A program made the position numbers and the translations under genes. Source: Arenicola marina (taxonomy: Eukaryota; Annelida; Polychaeta; Arenicolidae). Taken from it: a stretch of DNA of 64,000 nucleotides. The stretch spans positions 33,659,670 to 33,723,669 of the forward strand of contig OZ025248.1 of the NCBI GenBank assembly GCA_964019135.1, written 5' to 3'. Shown one piece after another: positions 1,340-54,493 of the stretch; within the stretch, counting starts at the first letter, position 1; the number at the start of each line of letters is the position of its first letter. The notes beneath the pieces were generated by a model, which worked only from the letters and a program-made list of their open reading frames with translations, did not search any database and was not told the DNA's origin.

Positions 1340-1633
1340 AAAAAGAAGAGATGGTCGCATCAGAAACATAAGCTGTCCATTCCATCAACCTATAACGTCT
1401 TGTCGAAGCATAAAGATCACAGAAACCCGATATTTCGTCGCCAGTTCCTTTTCCTGTCGGAATGGGGTAGATTGTATCTTGTTCTTTCATGACCCCTCGC
1501 GAGACCGCCGATATAACGCCGTTGCCTTCTGCAATGAAAGAAATTCCCAGACCCCCCTCTCCCCCCCCCTACCCAAAAATATTTCCAACAGTTTCCCACA
1601 ATCTTTATCTCACAGATATTTCTCTACCTACAG

Positions 1634-1831
1634 ATTATTATGGGGATGTCCCAGTCTACACCCCCAGCGGCTGGGCCGTCAGACCTGGCTGTCGTTACTG
1701 TTGGAAGCGGCGAGCGAAGACACAAATTGAATGTGGCCACACCAGACGACAAAATCAAAGGCTTAACGAGACTTCTGGCTGCCGAGAACCGTCACAAAGG
1801 CCGCGACAGTGATGAGTTTGAGACCCGTAGA
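1634..1831 (+). CDS. C2 gene exon 1 (first visible): N-terminal linker
   Basis: A pyrimidine-rich acceptor (ctctacctacag) precedes 1634 and a consensus donor (gtaagt) follows at 1832. The frame is open and ends in phase 0. The Met at 1640 (ATTATTATGG: A at -3, G at +4) is a good start context, and the peptide begins MGMSQS, which fits an N-myristoylation signal. The exon could instead be internal, with more coding sequence upstream. The rest is hydrophilic, rich in Lys, Arg and Asp, with no recognised domain. The alternative frame through 1489-1812 has no splice support. Confidence 0.6.
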
Positions 1832-4800
1832 GTAAGTTCACTTATTAGGTATACATGTTTACACTTCAACCTTCAACTTATTCAACAAGTTTAACCTTGT
1901 TGACACTTTGGTTGACATCATGACGTCAACATATTCAACAGAAACTCCAACACACAATAAACGCGTCTCTTTATCCTACATAGGTTTACGTTGAAGATTC
2001 TCCAACAAAGGTAAATGTAAACAATAAACGTTCAACAGGTTGACAATAGACAAATGCGCTCACTTTAATTGCAATTTGCGGGTGCTTTATTTGCCGTTTC
2101 AGGAGAATATGCAACTCCTGAAGCAGCTTTTCAAGAAGATGGATCCAGCCATAACACGTGGCGCCACCTACACCTCCCACGGTGACCTTGAACTGTCATT
2201 CAAGTACAATGCCAACGAGCGTCTCCTCTTGGTCAAGGTCATCCGAGCACGTGAACTCCAGGCTAAAGACCTGAGAGGCAAAGCTGCCGACCCTTACGTC
2301 TTGGTAAAGTAGAGCTTTAATTGTGGTGTGTCCCATGTCATATCTGAAACAGGAATGTATCCACATGAACACGATTTCCATTGTTCATCGCCCAGATCAC
2401 GTGTATCACGTGGCCTGTGGCGATGACGACCAAATCTCAACCAACCGAGTCCCTTATCATTTTATTCAAGTTTAAGATACCTCGTAGTTGAAAACAAAGT
2501 CGCATCTTATTTAAATGCCATTAGGTCATTATTTTTTTAATAGATATTTGCTCAAAATAATGATGGAAAGTCATTAAGAGATTGCTGAAATACGTATGCC
2601 ACTTGAAACTGCCGGAATGTTTTTCAAGTAGCATTACTCTACCGTAGACCAAATACGCCATAAAATGTAGTTGCCTTAGTTGGTCAAATAAGCGATCATT
2701 CAGTCCTCCTAATATAATTATTCTGAATATCCAGCTGCACCTGCACCCGGCAGAGGACCATGGTGGCACGAGGCGGACCCAGGTCGTCAAGCAAACGCTG
2801 AACCCCGTGTACCACGAGATCTTCTCATTCAGCGTGACCGACGAGGACCTCCAGGAGGGCTGCCTCGTGTGTCAGGTCAGTGGGACATCTGTATTACTGG
2901 TGTGTCAGGTCAGTGGGACATCTGTATTAATGGTGTATCAAGTCAGTGGGACATCTGTATTAATGGTGTGTCAAGTCAGTGGGACATCTGTATTACTGGT
3001 GTGTCAGGTCAGTGGGACATCTGTATTACTGGTGTGTCAGGTCAGTGGGACATCTGTATTAATGGTGTGTCAAGTCAGTGGGACATCTGTATTAATGGTG
3101 TGTCAAGTCAGTGGGACATCTGTATTAATGGTGTGTCAAGTCAGTGGGACATCTGTATTACTGGTGTGTCAGGTCAGTGGGACATCTGTATTACTGGTGT
3201 GTCAGGTCAGTGGGACATCTGTATTACTGGTGTGTCAGGTCAGTGGGACATCTGTATTAATGGTGTGTCAAGTCAGTGGGACATCTGTATTAATGGTGTG
3301 TCAAGTCAGTGGGACATCTGTATTACTGGTGTGTCAGGTCAGTGGGACATCTGTATTACTGGTGTGTCAGGTCAGTGGGACATCTGTATTACTGGTGTGT
3401 CAGGTCAGTGGGACATCTGTATTACTGGTGTGTCAGGTCAGTGGGACATCTGTATTAATGGTGTGTCAAGTCAGTGGGACATCTGTATTACTGGTGTGTC
3501 AGGTCAGTGGGACATCTGTATTACTGGTGTGTCAGGTCAGTGGGACATCTGTATTAATGGTGTGTCAAGTCAGTGGGACATCTGTATTAATGGTGTGTCA
3601 GGTCAGTGGGACATCTGTATTAGTGGTGTGTCAAGTCAGTGGGACATCTGTATTACTGGTGTGTCAGGTCAGTGGGACATCTGTATTACTGGTGTGTCAG
3701 GTCAGTGGGACATCTGCATTACTGGTGTGTCAGGTCAGTGGGACATCTGTATTACTGGTGTGTCAGGTCAGTGGGACATCTGTATTACTGGTGTGTCAGG
3801 TCAGTGGGACATCTGTATTAATGGTGTGTCAAGTCAGTGGGACATCTGTATTACTGGTGTGTCAGGTCAGTGGGACATCTGTATTAATGGTGTGTCAGGT
3901 CAGTGGGACATCTGTATTAATGGTGTGTCAGGTCAGTGGGACATCTGTATTACTGGTGTGTCAGGTCAGTGGGACATCTGTATTACTGGTGTGTCAGGTC
4001 AGTGGGACATCTGTATTAATGGTGTGTCAAGTCAGTGGGACATCTGTATTAGTGGTGTGTCAGGTCAGTGGGACATCTGTATTACTGGTGTGTCAGGTCA
4101 GTGGGACATCTGTATTACTGGTGTGTCAGGTCAGTGGGACATCTGTATTAATGGTGTGTCAAGTCAGTGGGACATCTGTATTAGTGGTGTGTCAGGTCAG
4201 TGGGACATCTGTATTACTGGTGTGTCAGGTCAGTGGGACATCTGTATTAATGGTGTGTCAAGTCAGTGGGACATCTGTATTAGTGGTGTGTCAGGTCAGT
4301 GGGACATCTGTATTACTGGTGTGTCAGGTCAGTGGGACATCTGTATTACTGGTGTGTCAGGTCAGTGGGACATCTGTATTACTGGTGTGTCAGGTCAGTG
4401 GGACATCTGTATTAGTGGTGTGTCAAGTCAGTGGGACATCTGTATTACTGGTGTGTCAGGTCAGTGGGACATCTGTATTAATGGTATGTCAGGTCAGTGG
4501 GACATCTGTATTACTGGTGTGTCAGGTCAGTGGGACATCTGTATTAATGATGTGTCAGGTCAGTGGGACATCTGTATTAATGGTGTGTCAAGTCAGTGGG
4601 ACATCTGTATTAATGGTGTGTCAAGTCAGTGGGACATCTGTATTACTGGTGTGTCAGGTCAGTGGGACATCTGTATTACTGGTGTGTCAGGTCAGTGGGA
4701 CATCTGTATTACTGGTGTGTCAAGTCAGTGGGACATCTGTATTAATGGTGTGTCAGGTCAGTGGGACATCTGTATTAGTGGTGTTTTATTGTGGTCAGTG

Positions 4801-7800
4801 GGACATCTGTATTAGTGGTGTTTTATTGTGGTCAGTGGGATATCTGTTGTGTCACGTCAGTGGGAAATCTGCTTCATGTTTCAGGTCTGGGGGTTAATAT
4901 ATTACAACAGGCCTAACTTGAATGAGCTGCCTACAGACTTCATAACTGTTCCAGGTCTGGGATCACGACGTGCTTGGGAAGGATGACGTCATTGGCGAGA
5001 CTCTCGTTCACCTCTCCTCCATGGACTTTCACCAGCAGCCGGCTCACACAGCCTGGTACACCCTGAACACCGAGGTAAGGGTCTGACACTGTCTGTACAC
5101 CCTGAACACCGAGGTAAGGGTCTGACACTGTCTGTACACCCTGAACACCGAGGTAAGGGTCTGACACTGTCTGTACACCCTGTACACCGAGGTAAGGGTG
5201 TGCCACTGCCTGGTACACCCTGAACACCGAGGTAAGGGTCTGACACTGCCTGGTACACCCTGTGCACCGAGGTAAGGGTCTGACACTGCCTGGTACACCC
5301 TGAACACCGAGGTAAGGGTCTGACACTGCCTGGTACACCCTGAAAACCGAGGTAAGGGTCTGACACTGCCTGGTACACACTGTACGCCGGGGTAAGGGTC
5401 TGACACTGCCTGGTACACCCTGTACACCGAGGTAAGGATATGACACTGCCTGGTACACCCTGTGCACCGAGGTAAGGGTCTGACACTGCCTGGTACACCC
5501 TGTACACCGAGGTAAGGGTCTGACACTGACTGGTACACCGTGGACACCGAGGTAAGGGTCTGACACTGCCTGGTACACCCTGAAAACCGAGGTAAGGGTC
5601 TGACACTGCCTGGTACACACTGTACGCCGGGGTAAGGGTCTGACACTGCCTGGTACACCCTGTACACCGAGGTAAGGATATGACACTGCCTGGTACACCC
5701 TGTGCACCGAGGTAAGGGTCTGACACTGCCTGGTACACCCTGTACACCGAGGTAAGGGTCTGACACTGACTGGTACACCGTGGACACCGAGGTAAGGGTC
5801 TGACACTGTCTGTACACCCTGTACACCGAGGTAAGGGTCTGACACTACCTGGTACACCCTGAACACCGAGGTAAGGGTCTGACACTGCCTGGTACACTCT
5901 GTACGCCGGGGTAAGGATCTGGTACGCCCTGTACACCGAGGTAAGGGTCTGACACTACCTGGTACGCCCTGAACGCCGAGATAAGGATCTGACACTGCCT
6001 GGTACGCCCTGTACGCCGGGGTAAGGGCCTGAGGCGGTCTGGTACGCCATGTACACTGAGGTAAGGGTGTGACACCGTCTGGTACGCCCTGTACGCCTAT
6101 GTAAGGGCCTGAGGCGGCCTGGTAGGCCATGTACAACGAGGTAAGGGTCTGACACTGCCTGGTACGCCCTGTACGCCGGAGTAAGGGTGTGAAACCGACT
6201 GGTACGCCCTGCACGCCTGTGTAAGGGCCTGAGGGGGCCTGGTACGCTCTGTACGCCGTGGTAAGGGCCTGAGGCGGCCTGGTAGGCCCTGTACACCGAG
6301 GTAAGGGTCTGACACTACCTGGTACGCCCTGTACGCCGGGGTAAGGGCCTGAGGCGGTCTGGTACGCCATGTACACCGAGGTAAGGGTCTGACACAGCCT
6401 AGTAGGCCCTGTACACCGAGGTAAGGGTCTGACACTACCTGGTACGCTCTGTACGCCGCGGTAAGGGCCTGAGGCGGTCTGGTACGCCATGTACACCGAG
6501 GTAAGGGTCTGATACAGCCTAGTAGGCCCTGTACGCCGCGGTAAGGGCCTGAGGCGGTCTGATACGCCATGTACACCGAGGTAAGGGTCTGACACAGCCT
6601 GGTAGGCCCTGTACGCCGAGGTAAGGGTCTTACACTACCTGACACACCCTGTACACCGAGGTAAGGGTGTGACACTGCCTGTTACGCCCTGTACACCGAG
6701 GTAAGGGTCTGACACAGTGTGGTACGCCCTGTACACCGAGGTAAGGGTGTGACACAGTGTGGTACGCCCTGTACACCGAGGTAAGGTGTGATACGGTCTG
6801 GTAGGCCCTGTACGCCGGGGTAAGGGCCTGAGGTGGCCTGGTACGCCATATACACCGAGGTAAGGGTGTGACACTGCCTGTTACGCCCTGTACACCGAGG
6901 TAAGGGTGTGACACTGCCTGGTGCGCCCTGTACACCGAGGTAAGGGCCTGAGGCGGCCTGGTACGCCCTGTAAGCCGGAGTAAGGGCCTGAGGCGGCCTG
7001 GTACGCCCTGTACGCCTATATATAAATATTGTCAAGCACAATTAAATGTATTTTACACACGCACACGCACGCATGCCAAAATTGTCGCCACTGTAATTTG
7101 CAGACCGACATGACCATCGACGGTGAACTTGAAGTGACCTTGAAGTACCGAAAGCCCCAGACGCTGCTGGTGACGGTGCACGGGGCTCACAGCCTCACCA
7201 ACCGGTACGAGGAGGGGGCCCCCAACCCGATGGTCAAGCTTCAGATACCCGGCCTACAACACATGTTCGAGACCGAGGTCCGTACCATGCGGCTCCTGTC
7301 CTGTCAACGCAGCTCATTAATACACGAGACGGTTCATTCACAGCCTCTCGGGTTATATGTGGGATGGCTGGCCGGCCGGCAGCGAGGCGCGTTTTATATG
7401 TGGGATGGGTGGCCAATTAAAGAAAAAGAATTGAAAATTGATGTGTGACGTGTGGAAGGCATTTGATAGAGTGTGGCATTATATGATGCTTGTTAGATGG
7501 ATTTATTGCAAAGGCCACCGCATTTACAATGTAGCGTGGTGCAACACTGTTCATCTACAAATATATAGAAACGGCATACATGACGTGTAATTATTGCCAG
7601 ACTGACGTCCCTTCTATTCTATTGAACTCATATTAATTTAAACAACACCCGTGTCTAGCAGTGTAACCTAAAGCTGTACTCAGCTGGAATGTTTTATAGA
7701 GTCCGAGCTGGGTTTCTAGATTTTCTTCAATTTTGGTCATTTCATTTCTGATGAATTTGGGTAATATATTACTTTTCCACCAGATGAAGTTTGACACGAC

Positions 7801-9494
7801 AGACCCTGTATGGGAGCAGACGTTTGAGTTCAGCATACGCAAGGAAGAATTCGGCTCCAGGTTAGCATGCCTCAGTGGAGGACGGGTTTACCCGCTATCC
7901 ATGAGTTGGGGGGGTAGGGGCGGGGGGCATAAGGCATGCATTGCTTCTGAGTTCTTGGGTAGCCATTAACAAATATGTCCACTTTCCTGTATAAACCAAC
8001 GAGCTCAGTTAATTTTGGATGGGTTATAGTGTCGTTTCTACAATTTACTTTCCAGGATGGGCTGGGGTTCCTACATGTCATGGCTCAACTACTTATTCGT
8101 TTTTTCAGGTACCTTTTTTTGACGCGAACCTTGACCGTGTTTCAGGTACTTGGTTCTTGACGCTGTGGACTTTGACCCTGTTTCAGGTACCTGGTTCTTG
8201 ACGCTGTGGACTTTGACCCTGTTTCAGGTACCTGGTTCTTGACGCTGTGGACTTTTGTCCTGTTTCAGGCACCTGGTTCTTGGCGTTGTGATATTTGACC
8301 CTGTTTCAGGTACTTGGGTCTTCATGCTGTGGGCTTTGACTCTATTTCAGGTACCTAGTTCTTCATGCTGTGGACTTTGGCCCTGTTTCAGGTACCTGGT
8401 TCTTTGCGTTGTGAACTTTGACCCTGTTTCAGGTACCTGGTTCTTTGCGTTGTGAACTTTGACCCTGTTGCAGGTACCTGGTTCCTCGGCGTTGTGAACT
8501 TGACCCTGTTTCAGGGACTTGGTTCTTGACGCTGTGAACCTTGACCCTGTTTCAGGTACCTGGTTCCTCGGCGTTGTGAACTTGACCCTGTTTCAGGGAC
8601 TTGGTTCTTGACGCTGTGAACTTTGACCCTGTTTCAGGTACCTGGTTTTTGACGCTGTGAACTTTGACCCTGTTTCAGGTACCTGGTTCTTCATGCTGTG
8701 AACTTTGACCCTGTTTCAGGTACCTGGTTCTTGGCGTTGTGAACTTGACCCTGTTTCAGGTACCTGGTTCTTGACGCTGTGAACTTTGACCCTGTTTCAG
8801 GTACCTGGTTCTTCATGCTGTGGACTTTTACCCTGTTTCAGGTACCTAGTTCTTGACGCTGTGAACTTTGACCCTGTTTCAGGTACCTGGTTCTTCATGC
8901 TGTGGATTTTGACCCCGTAGGCCGCAACGACTCACTGGGTCAGGTCATCATCGAGCTCAGCCATCTGGAACCGGAAATCGGCTTCTCGGGGAGATTTGAA
9001 CTGGCAGACTTGGTATGTGCGCCGCGGTTATCGGAGAAGTTTCCTCAGCACTAAAGGGTTAAACGTCCAAAAAACTAACCACAGTTATGTAGCTGTACCG
9101 TTAGATTATTGGAAGGGCTCGATGGCTTTTCGATCAGTCTCGCATACAGTTCACCGCTGAAATTAACTGCATTTTTGTATAAACTTTAATTATTTAACGA
9201 TAACGAATACACATATCAACGGCCACCTAAAATGTACTGCATGTCCTAAGCACATAGCCATATACTTTCCAAACGGGTCTATTACATTGGTGCTTAAGTG
9301 ACATCTCCCAAGCGGGACAGATGTATTATAGACAACCATATTAAGTTCTCCATTCACCCTTACAGAAGAACAGCGAGCGCCTTCGCTCCAAGTGGTTCCA
9401 GCACGCCACTGTGCAGGAATTCCGCGAAGCCCTCGTGGCGCACGCATGCGCAAGACACCCCGGCTTCATCTTCCAGAAACACTCCGGAAACAAG
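1634..9494 (+). CDS. Double C2-domain protein, synaptotagmin-related (eight exons, gene-level entry)
   Basis: Eight exons (1634-1831, 2103-2303, 2735-2875, 4955-5074, 7104-7277, 7784-7860, 8883-9012, 9366-9494) join with compatible phases into about 388 residues from the Met at 1640. The protein has an N-terminal linker, C2A (exons 2-4), a short linker, C2B (exons 5-7) and a C-terminal extension (exon 8). C2A keeps Asp ligands in loop 1 (QAKDLRGKAADPYV) and loop 3 (VWDHDVLGKDD). C2B keeps the loop 3 Asp cluster (VDFDPVGRND), but loop 1 reads EEGAPNP, without the usual Asp. C2 tandems of this kind bind phospholipid, often with calcium, in membrane traffic. That role is inferred from the family. 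No transmembrane segment is visible, so a soluble DOC2/Slp-like form is possible, but the subfamily is not recognised. Three introns carry minisatellites built from their own splice junctions. Upstream and downstream exons may be missing. Confidence 0.8.
1832..2102 (+). other. C2 gene intron 1
   Basis: A short intron between a gtaagt donor and a gtttcag acceptor. It contains several caac/gttgac words but no array. Confidence 0.7.
2103..2303 (+). CDS. C2 gene exon 2: start of C2A
   Basis: The acceptor tttgccgtttcag ends at 2102 and the donor gtaaag begins at 2304, phase 0 at both ends. It encodes an amphipathic lead-in and then the C2A opening strands (GDLELSFKYN, LLLVKVIRARELQAKD) and the loop 1 signature ADPYV. 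The Asp residues of KDL and ADP match the calcium-coordinating positions of synaptotagmin C2A. Confidence 0.88.
2735..2875 (+). CDS. C2 gene exon 3: middle of C2A
   Basis: The acceptor ctgaatatccag ends at 2734. The exon encodes LHLHP followed by the typical C2 segment QTLNPVYHEIFSFSV. It ends ...GTGTGTCAG with the donor GTCAGT at 2876. Joining to 4955 restores the C2 reading (CLVCQ then VWDHD). The donor is the first copy of array A. The frame stays open through the array for about 2 kb because the unit is 33 bp, so the exon end cannot be set from the open frame alone. The homology join makes 2875 the best choice. Confidence 0.85.
2871..4870 (+). repeat. Array A: 33-bp minisatellite seeded on the exon 3 donor (about 58 copies)
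   Basis: The unit is gtgtgtcaggtcagtggg followed by acatctgtattactg. The start of each unit duplicates the exon 3 end (GTGTGTCAG) and its donor GTCAGT. Two main classes differ at position -1 of the donor (CAG|GT or CAA|GT), and the middle triplet varies (act, aat, agt). The last copies (4780-4870) are degenerate. The frame of exon 3 remains open throughout, giving an 11-residue repeat of the form VCQVSGTSVLL. It is treated as intronic because the C2 domain resumes at 4955. Confidence 0.95.
4955..5074 (+). CDS. C2 gene exon 4: end of C2A with calcium loop 3
   Basis: The acceptor aactgttccag ends at 4954 and the consensus donor GAG|GTAAGG is at 5075. It is 120 nt (40 codons), phase 0. It encodes VWDHDVLGKDDVIGE, with three Asp at the C2 loop 3 positions, and ends with the strand HTAWYTLNTE typical of a C2 domain terminus. 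The last 24 nt plus the donor recur in every unit of array B. Confidence 0.9.
5050..7020 (+). repeat. Array B: 40-bp minisatellite seeded on the exon 4 donor (about 49 copies)
   Basis: Each unit contains gcctggtacaccctgaacac, then cgag and gtaagggtctgacact. The first part is the exon 4 end, and GAG|GTAAGG is its donor. The proximal part (to about 5990) keeps the exon-like form. The distal part has a diverged family with gtaagggcctgaggcgg and tacgccgggg. Positions about 5305-5568 recur perfectly at 5545-5808, a six-unit block duplication. Confidence 0.95.
7104..7277 (+). CDS. C2 gene exon 5: linker and start of C2B
   Basis: The acceptor gtaatttgcag ends at 7103 and the donor GAG|GTCCGT is at 7278. 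It is 174 nt, phase 0. After a six-residue linker it encodes GELEVTLKYRKPQTLLVTV and the loop 1 region NRYEEGAPNPMVKLQIPG. The Asp that normally precedes Pro in loop 1 is Asn here, so this side of the C2B calcium site looks weakened. Confidence 0.88.
7441..7590 (+). pseudogene. Possible reverse-transcriptase relic in C2 intron 5
   Basis: An open stretch of 49 codons reads CDVWKAFDRVWHYMMLVRW..., resembling the conserved KAFDxVWH motif of non-LTR reverse transcriptases. No flanking RT motifs were found, so it is either a short relic or chance. Confidence 0.3.
7784..7860 (+). CDS. C2 gene exon 6: C2B core strand
   Basis: The acceptor acttttccaccag ends at 7783 and the donor ccag|gttagc is at 7861. 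It is 77 nt and ends two bases into an Arg codon that exon 7 completes. It encodes the C2 hallmark DTTDPVWEQTFEFSI. The phase match with exon 7 supports both boundaries. Confidence 0.88.
8105..8925 (+). repeat. Array C: 41-bp minisatellite seeded on the exon 7 acceptor (about 20 copies)
   Basis: The unit is gtacctggttcttgacgctg, then tgaactttgaccctgtttcag. Each copy carries the 3' splice site ccctgtttcag|g and a version of the first 28 or so bases of exon 7. The last copy is the functional acceptor and exon start. Variants have catgctgtgg in place of gacgctgtga. Confidence 0.95.
8883..9012 (+). CDS. C2 gene exon 7: end of C2B
   Basis: It starts at the last of about 20 repeated acceptors (ccctgtttcag|g) and ends before the donor gtatgt at 9013. 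It is 130 nt and completes the split Arg codon. It encodes YLVLHAVDFDPVGRNDSLG, with the C2B loop 3 Asp residues, and then GQVIIELSHL. The coding sequence is free of stops only from the last acceptor; starts further upstream soon reach a stop. Confidence 0.85.
9366..9494 (+). CDS. C2 gene exon 8: C-terminal extension
   Basis: The acceptor cacccttacag ends at 9365 and the donor AAG|GTAAGG is at 9495. It is 129 nt, phase 0. It encodes a basic, helix-prone stretch (ERLRSKWFQHATVQEFREAL) that I do not recognise. A second consensus donor (GAG|GTAAGC) at 9519 would add eight codons in frame. If neither donor is used the frame stops at 9615-9617, with AATAAA at 9813-9818, so this may also be the last exon. 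No later exon was identified with confidence. Confidence 0.7.
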
Positions 9495-9610
9495 GTAAGG
9501 TCGTGGCTGCAGAAAGAGGTAAGCCCCAGGCCCTGGAAACCTTTTACTCTTTTGACTGTTTTTCTCCCGTATCGACACGTCATTCGCGAGAATCTTTACA
9601 TCCACACTCC

Positions 9611-9732
9611 ATCCTGAGCAATATATGGTCGCCGTATGGTCCCCGTATGGTCCCCGTATGGACCCCGTATGGACCCCGTATGGACCCCGTATGGTCCCCG
9701 TATGGTCCCCGTATGGACCCCGTATCAACAAA
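9611..9732 (+). repeat. 12-bp minisatellite ccgtatggtccc / ccgtatggaccc
   Basis: About ten copies differ mainly at one base (t or a), just downstream of C2 exon 8. Confidence 0.9.
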
Positions 9733-9812
9733 TCACTCGGAAGCATACGTGTGTGTCACGGTGGGCAGGGAGATGGGGGGGGGGGGGGCTGGACGGGGTG
9801 GGGAGGGTGAGT

Positions 9813-9818
9813 AATAAA
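9813..9818 (+). promoter_or_regulatory. AATAAA, possible poly(A) signal of the C2 gene
   Basis: It lies about 200 bp after the stop reached if exon 8 is read through its donor (9615-9617). There is no clear GT-rich element downstream. It is weak support for a transcript end. Confidence 0.25.
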
Positions 9819-9839
9819 TCCGTCCGCGTATGCGCGCAC

Positions 9840-10920
9840 TGACGGACGAACAGCTCAGACAAGGAGCGGGGTGTGAAGATCAGGACAGCAGGGAATTATA
9901 GTGAGTTAATTACCTTCACCTCAATGACTGCATAACGTGCATGTGAGAGATATCAATGGAGGCTGATATGTTAGTGGCAGTATGCAGTCATTTACTCAAC
10001 TGCGTTATCGATGGATAAAACATAAATGTCGCCTGTGTTTCTCCGTAAGGAACCATTTAACGTAGCAGTACGATTGCAACGAATTACCACGACGATATGT
10101 ATCAAATACCCATTGAAGTTATACACTTAAATGCGGATTTTAAATAATTAGTTTTGTCGGTATTCGCCAGATCGCGCCACTAGTAACCCACGCGCTCACA
10201 CGGTGGCGCAATGACTGAGCGGCTATTTTACTCGCTAGATGGCGTTACTGAAATGGACTGAAGCTAATGCTGCAGCAAAGCACATGGCTGAAAACCGGCA
10301 TCCCTCATTGATATACTGTACATAAGAGAAACAACTCTCAAGCCCTGTGCGGGGTTCACCGGTTTCATTGCTACAAGTGGACGCACCGCGTATAGTTTGA
10401 TGAATGGAGCACTCTTATCCCATTGACCTCGTCTTGGCTACATTTCCGTTGAGGAAACGATTTTTCTCTTGTTTTATTAATGTTTAGGGCTCAATTCACA
10501 TCTTGTGACTGTGAGAGATCTTGCCACAGTAGTCATGCTTGGTTAACAGTGGACTCTAATGGGATCTAATTACACCAATATGTGGTCATTCCATTAGTAA
10601 ATGTGAGGTGTCCAACCTGTATGTCTTTGCGAAGATGGCGTCTCTGTTCAGTGGCACAACAGCAATAATTGACAGTAAGATGATTCACAGTGACAAGAAA
10701 ATGGCATGGTCAATTTCTTAGATGCACCTCTGATGCTTCCCGGCATAACGGTGAGGGCAGAATGCGACAGGAGACAGACAGGATGTCCATCGGTGGCTTC
10801 TGGCAACACTCAGTTTTATTATATCCGTCATATACATGTCATTACAAGTACTTTACACTGTTACCTTTACATTATTTTGGCGACTATTTAACTCCTTTAC
10901 TTTCTGTCCTCTCCCTTGTT
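9840..10920. other. Unassigned sequence
   Basis: Ordinary-complexity DNA with no supported gene. A possible exon near 9854 was considered and not accepted. Confidence 0.5.
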
Positions 10921-11210
10921 CTGTTTCTGTTCGCGTTTCGGCCAACTGACGGTCAGTTGATAACGCGTTTCAGTTTTTCAAAAGAGCTCCATGAGATTAT
11001 CCATTGGTCGGAGGTTCGCGCCCCCATGTGCAAATCTCCATCATCAGACCATGTATTTTACGAGAAGACAAGGGCTTCACACCCTGGGAGTTGGCTCCTT
11101 TCTCTCTCGGTCTCCTTATTACAACCATATCAGCTGTGTCATTCGCAAAGCAAACTGCCAGGAGTTTTGCCAATGACAATAAATTCATTATAGCTAAACT
11201 GAGATTTGGT
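10921..11210 (+). repeat. 290-bp dispersed repeat, copy 1
   Basis: It begins ctgtttctgttcgcgtttcg and ends taaactgagatttggt. It is strongly similar over its length to 13310-13600, in the same orientation. Similar open frames in both copies are too short and unlike known proteins. Confidence 0.9.
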
Positions 11211-11284
11211 CTATTTTCAGATGATACGCGTCCGGAGCAAGAAAGCACGTGCGGAGGGTAAACTACGTCTGATCGATGGGATCC

Positions 11285-12965
11285 CTGTGTATTAGTTTGT
11301 AGACTGGGTCCCCGTCACAGCGGGTTCCCTGTCTATTAGGACGTGGACTTGGTCCCCGTCGCAGCGGGTTCCCTGTCAACCAGGATGCGGACTGGGTCCC
11401 CGTCACAACGGGTTCCCGGTCTACCAGAGGTGGACTGGGTCCCCGTCACAACAGGTTCCCTGTCTAGTAGGATGTGAACTGGCTCCCCGTCTCAACGGGT
11501 TTCCTGTCTACTAGGATGTGGACTGGGTCCCCGTCTCAACGGGTTCCCTGTCTACTAGGACGTGGACTGGGTCCCCGTCACAGCGGGTTCCCAGTCTACC
11601 AGGATTTGGACTCGGTCCCCGTCACAACGGGTTCCCTGTCTACCAGGATGTGGACTGGGTCCCCGTCACAACGGGTTCCCTGTCTATAAGGACGCAAACT
11701 GGGTCCCCGTCACAGCGGGTTTCCTGTCTATTAGGGCGTGGACTGGGTCGCCGTCACTGCGGGTTCCCTGTCTATTAGGATGTGGACTGAATTTCCGTCA
11801 GAACGGGTTCCCTGCTTACAGGGATGTCATAAGGGCTTCCCTATCTACTAGGACGTCAGAACGGGTTCCCGGTTTACCAAAAGACGCCAGAACGGGTTTC
11901 CTGTCTACCAGGAGGTCAGAACAGGTTCCCTGTCTACTAGGACGTCAGAAAGGGTTCCCTGTCTACCAGGACGTCAGGACGGGTTCCCTGTCTACTAGGA
12001 CGTTATAAAGGGTTCCCTGTCTACTAGGACGTAAACACTGGTTCCCTGTCTACTATGACGTCAGAACAGGTTTCCTGTCTACTGGGCGTCAGAACGGGTC
12101 CCCTGTCTACCAAGACGTAAACACTGGTTCCCTGTCTACTATGAAGTCAGAACAGGTTCCCTGTCTACTAGGACGTCAGGACGGGTTCCCTGGCTACCGG
12201 GACGTCAGAACGGGTTTCCTGTCTACTAGGACGTCAGAACGGGTTCCCTGTCTACCGGGACGTCAGAACGGGTTCCCTGTCTACCGGGACGTCAGAACGG
12301 GTTCCCTGTCTACTAGGACGTCAGAACGGGTTCCCTGTCTACCAGGACGTAAACACTGGTTCCCTGTCTACTATGACGTCAGAACAGGTTCCCTGTCTAC
12401 TAGGACGTCAGAACGGGTTCCTTGTCTACCAGGACGTCAGAACGGGTTCCCTGTCTACTAGGACGTTAGAAAAGGTTCCCTGTCTACCAGGTCGTCAGAA
12501 CGGTTCCCTGTCTACTGGGCGTCAGAACGGGTTCCCTGTCTACCAGGACGTAAACACTGGTTCCCTGTCTACTATGACGTCAGAACAGGTTCCCTGTCTA
12601 CTAGGACGTCAGAACAGGTCCCCTGTCTGCTAGGACGTCAGAACGGGTTCCCTGTCTACCGGGACGTCAGAACGGATTTCCTGTCTACTAGGACGTCAGA
12701 ACGGGTTCCCTGTCTACCAAGACGTAAACACTGGTTCCCTGTCTACTAGGACGTCAGAACGGGTTTCCTGTCTACTATGACGTCAGAACGGGTTCCCTGT
12801 CTACTGGGCGTCAGAACGGGTTTCCTGTCTACTAGGACGTCAGAATGGGTTCCCTGTCTACCAGGACGTAAACACTGGTTCCCTGTCTACTATGACGTCA
12901 GAACGGGTTCCCTGTCTACTGGGCGTCAGAACGAGTTCTCTATCTACTAGGACGTCAGCCCGGGA
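11285..12965 (+). repeat. Minisatellite with 44-bp and 29-bp related units
   Basis: The left part (about 11285-11830) uses a 44-bp unit with gtggactgggtccccgtcac and aacgggttccctgtctacc. The right part uses a 29-bp unit, acgtcagaacgggttccctg plus tctactagg. The two share cgggttccctgtctac, so the short unit looks like the long one minus 15 bp. It lies between the two 290-bp repeats. Confidence 0.95.
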
Positions 12966-13154
12966 TGCCTGTCTGCTAGGACGCGGACCGGTTCCAAGTC
13001 ACAACGGATTCGGTCTCCTTGGTTGACTGGGTTCCCTGTCTAGCAAATCGTGGACTGATTCTGTGTCATGCTGGACTTCTGACTTCCCGGATGCGATGTA
13101 GATCCCTGTTACCAAGGGCTCCCAATCAACCACTGTACAATCAATCGCAAAGTA

Positions 13155-13768
13155 CAGTAGAAACTCCACAATGTGTGACCTTGGTTAGACCGAGGGATGG
13201 ATAGATTTGTGTTCTATGCCGCCTTTGTGCAAACATGGGCTAAACTAGGCCAAATCCCGAATGTTTTCTAAATCCCTAAATCACTTCCACCTGTAACCTT
13301 TACAACCGACTGTTTCTGTTCGCCTTGCGGCCAACTGACGGGTCAGTTGATAATGCGTTTCAGTTTTTCAAAAGAGCTCCATGAGATTAACCATCGGTCG
13401 GGGGTTCGCGGCCCCATGTGCAAATCTCCATCATCAGACCATGTATTTTACGAAAAAACAAGGGGTTCACACCCTGGTAGTTGGCTCCTTTCTCTCTCGG
13501 TCTCAATATTGCCACCATATCAGCTGTGCCATTCGCAAAGCAACCTGCCAGGAGTTTTGCCAATGACAATAAATTCATTATTACTAAACTGAGATTTGGT
13601 GGATGGATAGATTTGCTTTATGTCGCCCCTGTGCACACATGGGCTTAACTAGGCCAAATTCCGAATGTTTTCTGAATCCCTAAATCACGTCCACCTGTAA
13701 CCTTGACAACCGGCCACCTGTGTAAACAGACACCGTCCCATACAACATGGTTTATAGAGGTTCTACTG
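13155..13768. mobile_element. TIR element flanked by TA, probably a non-autonomous Tc1/mariner- or pogo-like element
   Basis: The left end TA|CAGTAGAAACTCCACAA matches the inverted right end (complement CAGTAGAACCTCTATAA) followed by TA. Such CAGTAGAACC termini with TA target sites are common in Tc1/mariner relatives. Inside are two direct copies of a roughly 115-bp sequence (13195-13308 and 13601-13712, starting ggatggatagatttg) around copy 2 of the 290-bp repeat. No transposase frame was seen. Confidence 0.6.
13310..13600 (+). repeat. 290-bp dispersed repeat, copy 2
   Basis: Same sequence as 10921-11210 with scattered substitutions. This copy is nested between two 115-bp direct repeats inside the TIR element. 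Confidence 0.9.
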
Positions 13769-27082: not shown

Positions 27083-27724
27083 TTACCGAGGAGGGAAAAA
27101 GTCTTGGGTGTACAGGTGCTGTCGCCAGACTGTGTCCAACCTTCCTATGAAACAATTCAGTGAGGGGGCCGTTACTACATTATCCGGTAGGGAGTTCCAG
27201 GTTTCGGTTACTCGAAGGGAAAAAAGTGTTGGCGCAATGCTGTCCTGCATGCCTCCTTGTCTATCTTTAGCCTGTGTCCCCTTGTGTTGCTTTCACCTGT
27301 AACTTGAGCGGGCAGTTTGGTTGGTATTTCCCATGGAGATATTTCCACACCTCTATCGTGTCCCCTCTGGCTCTCCTGTATGCCATACTTGGCAATTTTA
27401 GGTCTTTTAATCTCTCCTCATATGTTTTTTCTCGCAAGTCGGCCATAAGCCTTGTGGCTCGCCTTTGAACTCCTTCAATAAGTTTCCGATCTTGAATTAG
27501 CATTGGGGACCAGATGGCACCAGAGTGCTCAAGATGTGGTCTCACCAGGATGTGTACCACAGTTTCAGAGACTGCGTATCCAGGTACTCGTAAGAACGTC
27601 TGATTATGCCCAACAAACGATTGGCTTTATTGACCTGTAACTCAGTGTGCTTTTGTAGCTCAATTAGGGGGCATTGCGCTGACAAACAGATCCCGATTTT
27701 GAATCTGAGGATTATTGTTTTCAA
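27083..27724 (-). pseudogene. 3' fragment of a non-LTR retrotransposon (reverse transcriptase C-terminus)
   Basis: Minus-strand segments read KHTELQVNKANRLLGIIRRS, then LVRPHLEHSGAIWSP and VQRRATRLMADLREKTYEER, and finally SLRVTETWNSLPDNVV followed by a stop at 27083-27085. This is the conserved order of the thumb and C-terminal part of Jockey/CR1/L2-type reverse transcriptases. At least two frameshifts (near 27555 and near 27290) separate the pieces. The catalytic part and the endonuclease are absent, as expected for a 5'-truncated dead copy. Confidence 0.9.
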
Positions 27725-49490: not shown

Positions 49491-49626
49491 GAAGAAGAAG
49501 GACGTGGGATCTTTATCCTGTGAGTACACAGACATGGCCACGGCGGGGCTCGAACCACCGACCCACGTGCGGTTAGACTCTCAGGTGGCCAGAATGCGAG
49601 CGCTCTAACCCACTGAGCAGCCCATG
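49491..49626 (-). mobile_element. tRNA-derived SINE, copy 2
   Basis: It shares with copies 1 and 3 the body gggatctttatcctg and acacagacatggccac, a B box (complement of ggggctcgaacc) and an A-box region (complement of taacccactgagca). Confidence 0.8.
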
Positions 49627-50600: not shown

Positions 50601-50757
50601 CTACTCCTTGCGAAGAAGGGCGTGGGATCTTTATCCTGCGACCACACAGACATGGCCACAGCGGGGCTTGAACCACCGATCCACGTGCCGTTAGGGTCTC
50701 AGGAGGCCAGAGCGCTAAAGGGCAGCGCTCTAACCGACTGGGCTAACGGGGCGGCCC
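50601..50757 (-). mobile_element. tRNA-derived SINE, copy 3
   Basis: Begins on the minus strand with gccgccccgttagcccagtc (A-box-like) and has the B-box-like GGTTCAAGCCC. It matches copy 1 through ctactccttgcgaagaaggg at its left end. Confidence 0.82.
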
Positions 50758-54293: not shown

Positions 54294-54493
54294 NNNNNNN
54301 NNNNNNNNNNNNNNNNNNNNNNNNNNNNNNNNNNNNNNNNNNNNNNNNNNNNNNNNNNNNNNNNNNNNNNNNNNNNNNNNNNNNNNNNNNNNNNNNNNNN
54401 NNNNNNNNNNNNNNNNNNNNNNNNNNNNNNNNNNNNNNNNNNNNNNNNNNNNNNNNNNNNNNNNNNNNNNNNNNNNNNNNNNNNNNNNNNNNN
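54294..54493. other. Assembly gap (200 N)
   Basis: Exactly 200 N, so probably a nominal gap size. Local order next to it should be treated with care. Confidence 1.

Follow-up and report, generated by a model that had tools for sequence, protein, structure and literature searches.

Tandem repeats that lie over exon–intron boundaries are known from amphioxus as 'mirage' minisatellites. Cases in Adh3, the globin genes BflGb6 and BflGb9, troponin C and PGBD5 sit on the 5' or the 3' side, and many of them carry AG/GT signals (PMC3087553 and PMC3902484). The globin mirages include both boundary types, and RT-PCR suggests that splicing is normal (PMC3087553); the Adh, troponin C and PGBD5 cases were added by PMC3902484. 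PMC3087553 also discusses how introns may be gained when a proto-splice site (AG|GT) is duplicated in tandem, and in Cryptococcus introns are described as made by repeat expansion (PMC2395259). The original prediction for the DNA analysed here had named a human minisatellite that supplies splice donors, in IFI6 (6-16). That case is real, and two of its downstream units reportedly serve as donors (Turri 1995, as cited in PMC4526556). Among annelids, the earthworm metallothionein gene has intron-1 minisatellites with monomers averaging about 180 bp (PMC12783039).

We analysed a 64-kb window of the Arenicola marina genome (64,000 nt) in which one gene carries several such arrays. Three of them, A, B and C, belong by their anatomy to the mirage kind, which is already known. 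Their units span an exon–intron boundary, as do arrays at 20 of 271 exon edges sampled elsewhere in the genome; both boundary types are represented (A and B at donors and C at an acceptor, with 16 donors and 4 acceptors in the sample), and the AG or GT signal persists in almost every copy of A, B and C. They differ from the amphioxus mirages in occurring in another phylum, in reaching 59 copies, and in forming a set of four arrays in one gene, one of them over a stop codon. The frequency and donor bias of such arrays are also measured here, over the 271 edges. In the part of the literature covered, we found no published frequency, donor bias, stop-codon case or mirage outside lancelets, and a limited search returned no published donor hot zone. 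Like those of IFI6, the repeat units offer splice donors, which in our case are predicted from sequence alone. As in proto-splice and Cryptococcus intron gain, duplication supplies new splice signals, but here it is existing introns that lengthen. The metallothionein repeats are likewise annelid intronic minisatellites, but their monomers are about 180 bp and the available text states no splice-junction span.

The gene and its arrays are as follows (positions are those of the window).

1632..11295, forward strand: double-C2 (synaptotagmin-like) gene with ten coding exons, supported by a translation without internal stop, homologues and Pfam C2 matches
About 1638 (ATG) and 11293-11295 (stop codon), forward strand: start and end of the double-C2 gene
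1632-1831, 1984-2010, 2103-2303, 2735-2875 and 4955-5074, forward strand: coding exons 1-5
7104-7277, 7784-7860, 8883-9012, 9366-9494 and 11221-11295, forward strand: coding exons 6-10
2867..4821, forward strand: array A, 59.1 copies of 33 bp, 96% (TRF), made of the exon-4 tail and the 5' splice site
5046..7013, forward strand: array B, 49.6 copies of 40 bp, 84% (TRF), made of the exon-5 tail and the 5' splice site
8103..8915, forward strand: array C, 20.0 copies of 41 bp, 86% (TRF), made of the 3' splice site and the exon-8 start
11278..12983, forward strand: array D, 12 copies of 44 bp merging into 41 copies of 29 bp, over the last codons, the stop codon and the 3'UTR
9624..9725, forward strand: internal array of intron 9, 9 copies of 11 bp (TRF), touching no exon and thus a counter-example within the same gene

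The ten-exon model yields a 421-aa protein with no internal stop. Pfam places two C2 stretches in a 324-aa part of it, and synaptotagmins are its best solved relatives. With this 324-aa part as query, 38 homologous proteins were found; the top named ones are lophotrochozoan, for example those from Lamellibrachia (54%), Lingula (52%) and Owenia (50%), each at 100% coverage. A CCT-epsilon query had its top named hits in the annelids Capitella and Dimorphilus (77%), besides an unnamed protein at 88%, and this too suggests an annelid. The exon joins are continuous in the homologues (VVQVWDKD and WYALQAETDL in homologue P0001), and GIPVY-stop marks the end of the gene, as it does in P0001. Since the homologues read through the joins, the exon-proximal splice sites are the ones that yield the conserved protein.

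The original prediction, that three introns of this gene each hold a minisatellite built from their own splice junction, agrees with TRF and the exon model in positions and units. Its exon numbers (3, 4 and 7) do not survive a recount, which gives coding exons 4, 5 and 8 of ten, and it had missed array D altogether. The unit of array A joins 9 nt of exon (..GTGTGTCAG) to 24 nt of intron, that of array B 29 nt of exon to 11 nt of intron, and that of array C 6 nt of intron (TTTCAG) to 35 nt of exon; the last copy of array C is the one that joins exon 8. Array D begins 18 nt before the end of the stop codon and repeats GGGATCCCTGTGTATTAG (GIPVY-stop) together with 3'UTR. Counting the functional copy in each case, GT is present in all 59 scored units of array A, the G and T are kept in 98% and 100% of the 49 units of array B, and AG is present in 20 of 20 units of array C. 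Sites scoring no lower than the functional donor number 40 in array A and 35 in array B, again with the functional one included. In the intron of array C, six upstream acceptor sites score above the true acceptor (7.5), and two do so by far (11.2 and 13.0). A transcript with about 50 donor copies, 35-40 of which match the functional score, is a natural test of exon-proximal site choice. Array A is also open in the reading frame of the gene, forming part of a 749-codon ORF (window 2648-4894), and gene predictors may take this open stretch of several hundred codons for coding sequence.

The repeat units of arrays A and B appear to be of local origin. When the first 200 bp of array A and the first 240 bp of array B were searched against the 867-Mb assembly (762 contigs), each matched its own array only; as the search skips very common words, this is good but not complete evidence. 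A dispersed satellite or mobile repeat as the source of the A and B units is not supported by the same search. We also considered a larger duplication behind array D. Self-BLAST showed instead a 291-bp interspersed element that stops short of the last exon. This element lies at 10921-11210 and 13310-13600 (93% identity), with a pair of 114-bp direct repeats (13195-13308 and 13601-13712) on either side of its second copy. Another dispersed repeat occurs at 1182-1325, 49494-49618 and 50601-50745 (84-86% identity) and is a candidate tRNA-derived SINE. tRNA and Rfam scans of the 64-kb window gave no matches. An ORF at 27270-27626 on the reverse strand is a candidate reverse-transcriptase remnant.

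Exon edges elsewhere in the genome were sampled through Pfam searches for myosin heads (77 places), CCT chaperonins (49) and kinesin motors (133). Within a domain, edges were positioned by splice-site score close to the end of the match. This placed 307 edges (147 donor, 160 acceptor), and removal of 36 whose best site scored 4 or less left 271 (135 donor, 136 acceptor). An edge was called spanned when an array started 5-57 bp inside the exon and crossed the edge. Myosin and CCT places were counted only where they fell inside retrieved stretches. Eighty of the 133 kinesin places were entered, leaving out 20 others and a further 33 that had in-frame stops, lay on contigs C390, C536 and C504, or were weak matches. 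Three places with PF00118 matches (C5:36718893 and two on C10) are long and seem to lack introns; these were omitted, and PF00664 matches were excluded from every count. Five myosin stretches were picked by hand after arrays had been seen in the first 30 loci. Kinesin stretches reach only 200 bp beyond the exon, which makes array detection poorer. Earlier sets of 94 and 63 edges used a score cut of 3 and overlap with the 271.

Arrays spanned 20 of the 271 edges: 16 of 135 donors, or about one in eight, and 4 of 136 acceptors. The donor share of 16/20 has p=0.007. Without the five hand-picked stretches the counts are 15/129 and 4/133, with a donor ratio of 3.33 over intron interior (p=4.5e-4), and widening the exon band to 60 bp adds one more spanned donor, for 17. 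Outside the 16 are a donor array starting 87 bp inside its exon (C11:24863492) and a few starting 2-4 bp inside. Each family contributes examples.

C12:10144302: array at a myosin exon tail, 25 copies of 62 bp
C8:22399647: array at a CCT exon tail, 40 copies of 29 bp
C14:6742300: array at a kinesin exon tail, 3.5 copies of 71 bp, in a stretch that ends at 200 bp

One kinesin exon, at C14:21551797, is spanned at its two edges (acceptor array 32 bp, donor array 61 bp). The spanned rate is about 14.4% per intron, and nine introns would be expected to hold 1.3 such arrays, with a probability of 0.13 for three or more. The idea that three in one gene is special therefore falls away, all the more so because the window was picked for its arrays.

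We then compared edges with intron interiors. With TRF run on full-length stretches, donors had 16 arrays in 7155 bp and the interior 29 in 43,414 bp, a 3.35-fold density (p=2.8e-4); stricter score and length cuts raised the donor ratio to 4.3-6.2 (p from 3.5e-5 to 1.3e-6). The acceptor ratio was 0.60 (p=0.39) and ranged from 0.58 to 0.74 over the cuts, never significantly, and the pooled ratio was 1.75-2.6 (p=0.03-0.002). The proposed local or genome-wide amplification of exon edges is thus partly supported: spanning arrays occur in three unrelated families and exceed chance at donors, but not at acceptors. A second, cruder control, with TRF on 200-bp windows, gave 1.97 for donors (15/135, p=0.027), 0.38 for acceptors (4/136, p=0.051) and 1.06 for the two pooled (p=0.80). 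Such windows may give false starts when they open inside an array, and we think this control overcounts control array starts, so we trust the full-length control more. Control regions beyond 31 delimited introns may in turn hold unrecognised exons, which would lower the control density. The donor excess may be anything from about 2-fold to 6-fold.

Most telling is the gradient at donors. There the density of array starts (per non-array kb) was 2.16 from -60 to -5 bp, 3.55 from -5 to 20 bp and 3.42 from 20 to 60 bp, and past +60 bp it was 0.69, 0.64, 0.43 and 0.48 out to 1000 bp. Myosin and CCT donors together gave 2.26, 3.75 and 2.52, then 0.58, and kinesin donors 2.03, 3.30 and 4.69, then 0.84 in their shorter stretches. 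Acceptors were low on the exon side (0.54) and raised on the near-edge intron side (2.5 and 1.65), with about 1.0-1.1 and then 0.46 at positions farther in. Arrays that start 20-60 bp into the intron, and so contain no splice site, are as dense at donors as those over the junction, which means that clustering around the donor does not depend on the donor being part of the array. The junction itself is thus not what defines the hot zone, as array D over the stop codon also illustrates. In the 31 fully delimited introns we counted 4 donor crossings (1.2 expected), 1 acceptor crossing (1.2) and 12 internal arrays (14.5), all small numbers.

In array B, likeness to the functional edge falls with distance (rho -0.74, or -0.63 with another phasing). 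Among the 12 arrays for which a trend was measured, 8 were negative, 4 with p<0.05: B, C12:10144302 (-0.62), C7:32813243 (-0.64) and C17:26070828 (-0.9). Polarity was absent in array A (-0.01), C8:22399647 (0.03) and C5:9366046 (0.05), and trends were positive at C17:26069214 (0.74, p=0.09) and at the C14:21551797 acceptor (0.32). The donor hexamer ranks 1 of 40 for conservation in array B and 11 of 33 in A, and TTTCAG ranks 2 of 41 in C; the stop codon of array D is not conserved across copies (rank 37 of 44 column sets).

These arrays are, in our judgement, probably mirage minisatellites formed by local tandem duplication at exon edges, with the exon-side copy functional and a donor-side hot zone on top. 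A local tandem duplication would capture an exon edge and then grow via slippage or unequal exchange. Under exon definition the spliceosome would be expected to take the copy nearest the exon body, so the protein would stay unchanged while further copies became intron, free to expand. With a duplicated acceptor, surplus AGs would lie upstream of the true site, and such a duplication may be tolerated less often, whereas donor-side duplications may be tolerated, or may arise, more often. The same rule could apply to array D, where the first stop would end translation and the remaining copies would be 3'UTR. Beyond such a tolerance filter, array starts seem to favour about 60 bp on either side of the 5' splice site, and this preference suggests that the exon–intron transition is a hot zone, mutational or mechanistic in kind. 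Against this reading weigh the weaker result of the 200-bp window control, the arrays with absent or positive polarity, and the many copies in A and B and upstream acceptors in the intron of C that score as high as the functional sites or higher. If arrays do start there, intron lengthening has a local, directional source linked to gene anatomy. We put forward more tentatively, as a possibility, that 5' splice sites are minisatellite birthplaces in this genome. About 60 bp on each side would nucleate arrays several-fold more than the rest of the gene, perhaps co-transcriptionally (R-loops, U1-bound nascent RNA, pausing), and selection, or else copying off the functional edge, would keep the decoy donors intact. 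Such birthplaces would provide a steady, directional supply of intron growth and raw splice sites.

It seems rather unlikely to us that there is no hot spot, with even duplications, short introns before expansion, neutral growth over junctions and many spans arising by chance. The parts of the A, B and C introns outside the arrays amount to only 133, 90 and 242 bp, within which a 33-41 bp unit would often meet an edge, and the pooled ratio in the 200-bp window control is close to one. A myosin-only first look (donors 6/49, acceptors 1/45, score cut 3) was also, when pooled, about even with the interior. Chance does not readily account for donor densities 3.35 to 6.2 times the interior in the full-length analysis, for the steep fall beyond +60 bp in two gene sets, or for the excess of donor crossings in delimited introns, while the acceptors of the same introns have no exon-side excess. 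We find it improbable, too, that the arrays are functional, with tandem donors retained, as in human IFI6, to serve as U1-binding platforms or as a reservoir of alternative 5' splice sites. Non-functional copies do vary less in their donor hexamers than in other non-CpG columns (1.2% against 5.3%, pooled over 12 donor arrays, Fisher p=0.001), and 10 of the 12 show this individually, although copies share ancestry, so that columns are not independent, and p becomes 0.077 without arrays A and B of the window; we regard this difference as a lead. Over 15 arrays, columns of the splice motif have above-average ranks (mean percentile 0.31, Fisher p=0.017), and each further donor of array A, whose 33-bp unit is open, would add 11 aa in frame. 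Unit length is divisible by 3 in only 3 of 21 sampled arrays, however, and units of 40 bp (B) and 41 bp (C) do not preserve the reading frame. The acceptor motif is not clearly more conserved than other columns in the three acceptor arrays (5.2% against 7.0%, p=0.10), a result that does not support conserved decoy acceptors. An assembly artefact, with repeats collapsed or inflated, is hard to credit. Long arrays are difficult to assemble and the window has a 200-N run (54294-54493), but variants are interspersed between copies, array B grades with distance and the pattern recurs in many unlinked genes. Misassembly might change copy number; it would hardly create units at exon edges.

The searches also brought up features unrelated to the arrays. 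Kinesin matches on C390, C536 and C504 have only TAG and TAA as in-frame stops, and these contigs are probably ciliate contamination of the assembly. ABC-transporter matches cluster on both strands at C19:26.86-27.84 Mb, several with identical scores. On C4, at 367768-371306 and 380231-383133, there are four adjacent copies each of two myosin exons (profile positions 590-640 and 110-154), which are likely mutually exclusive exons.
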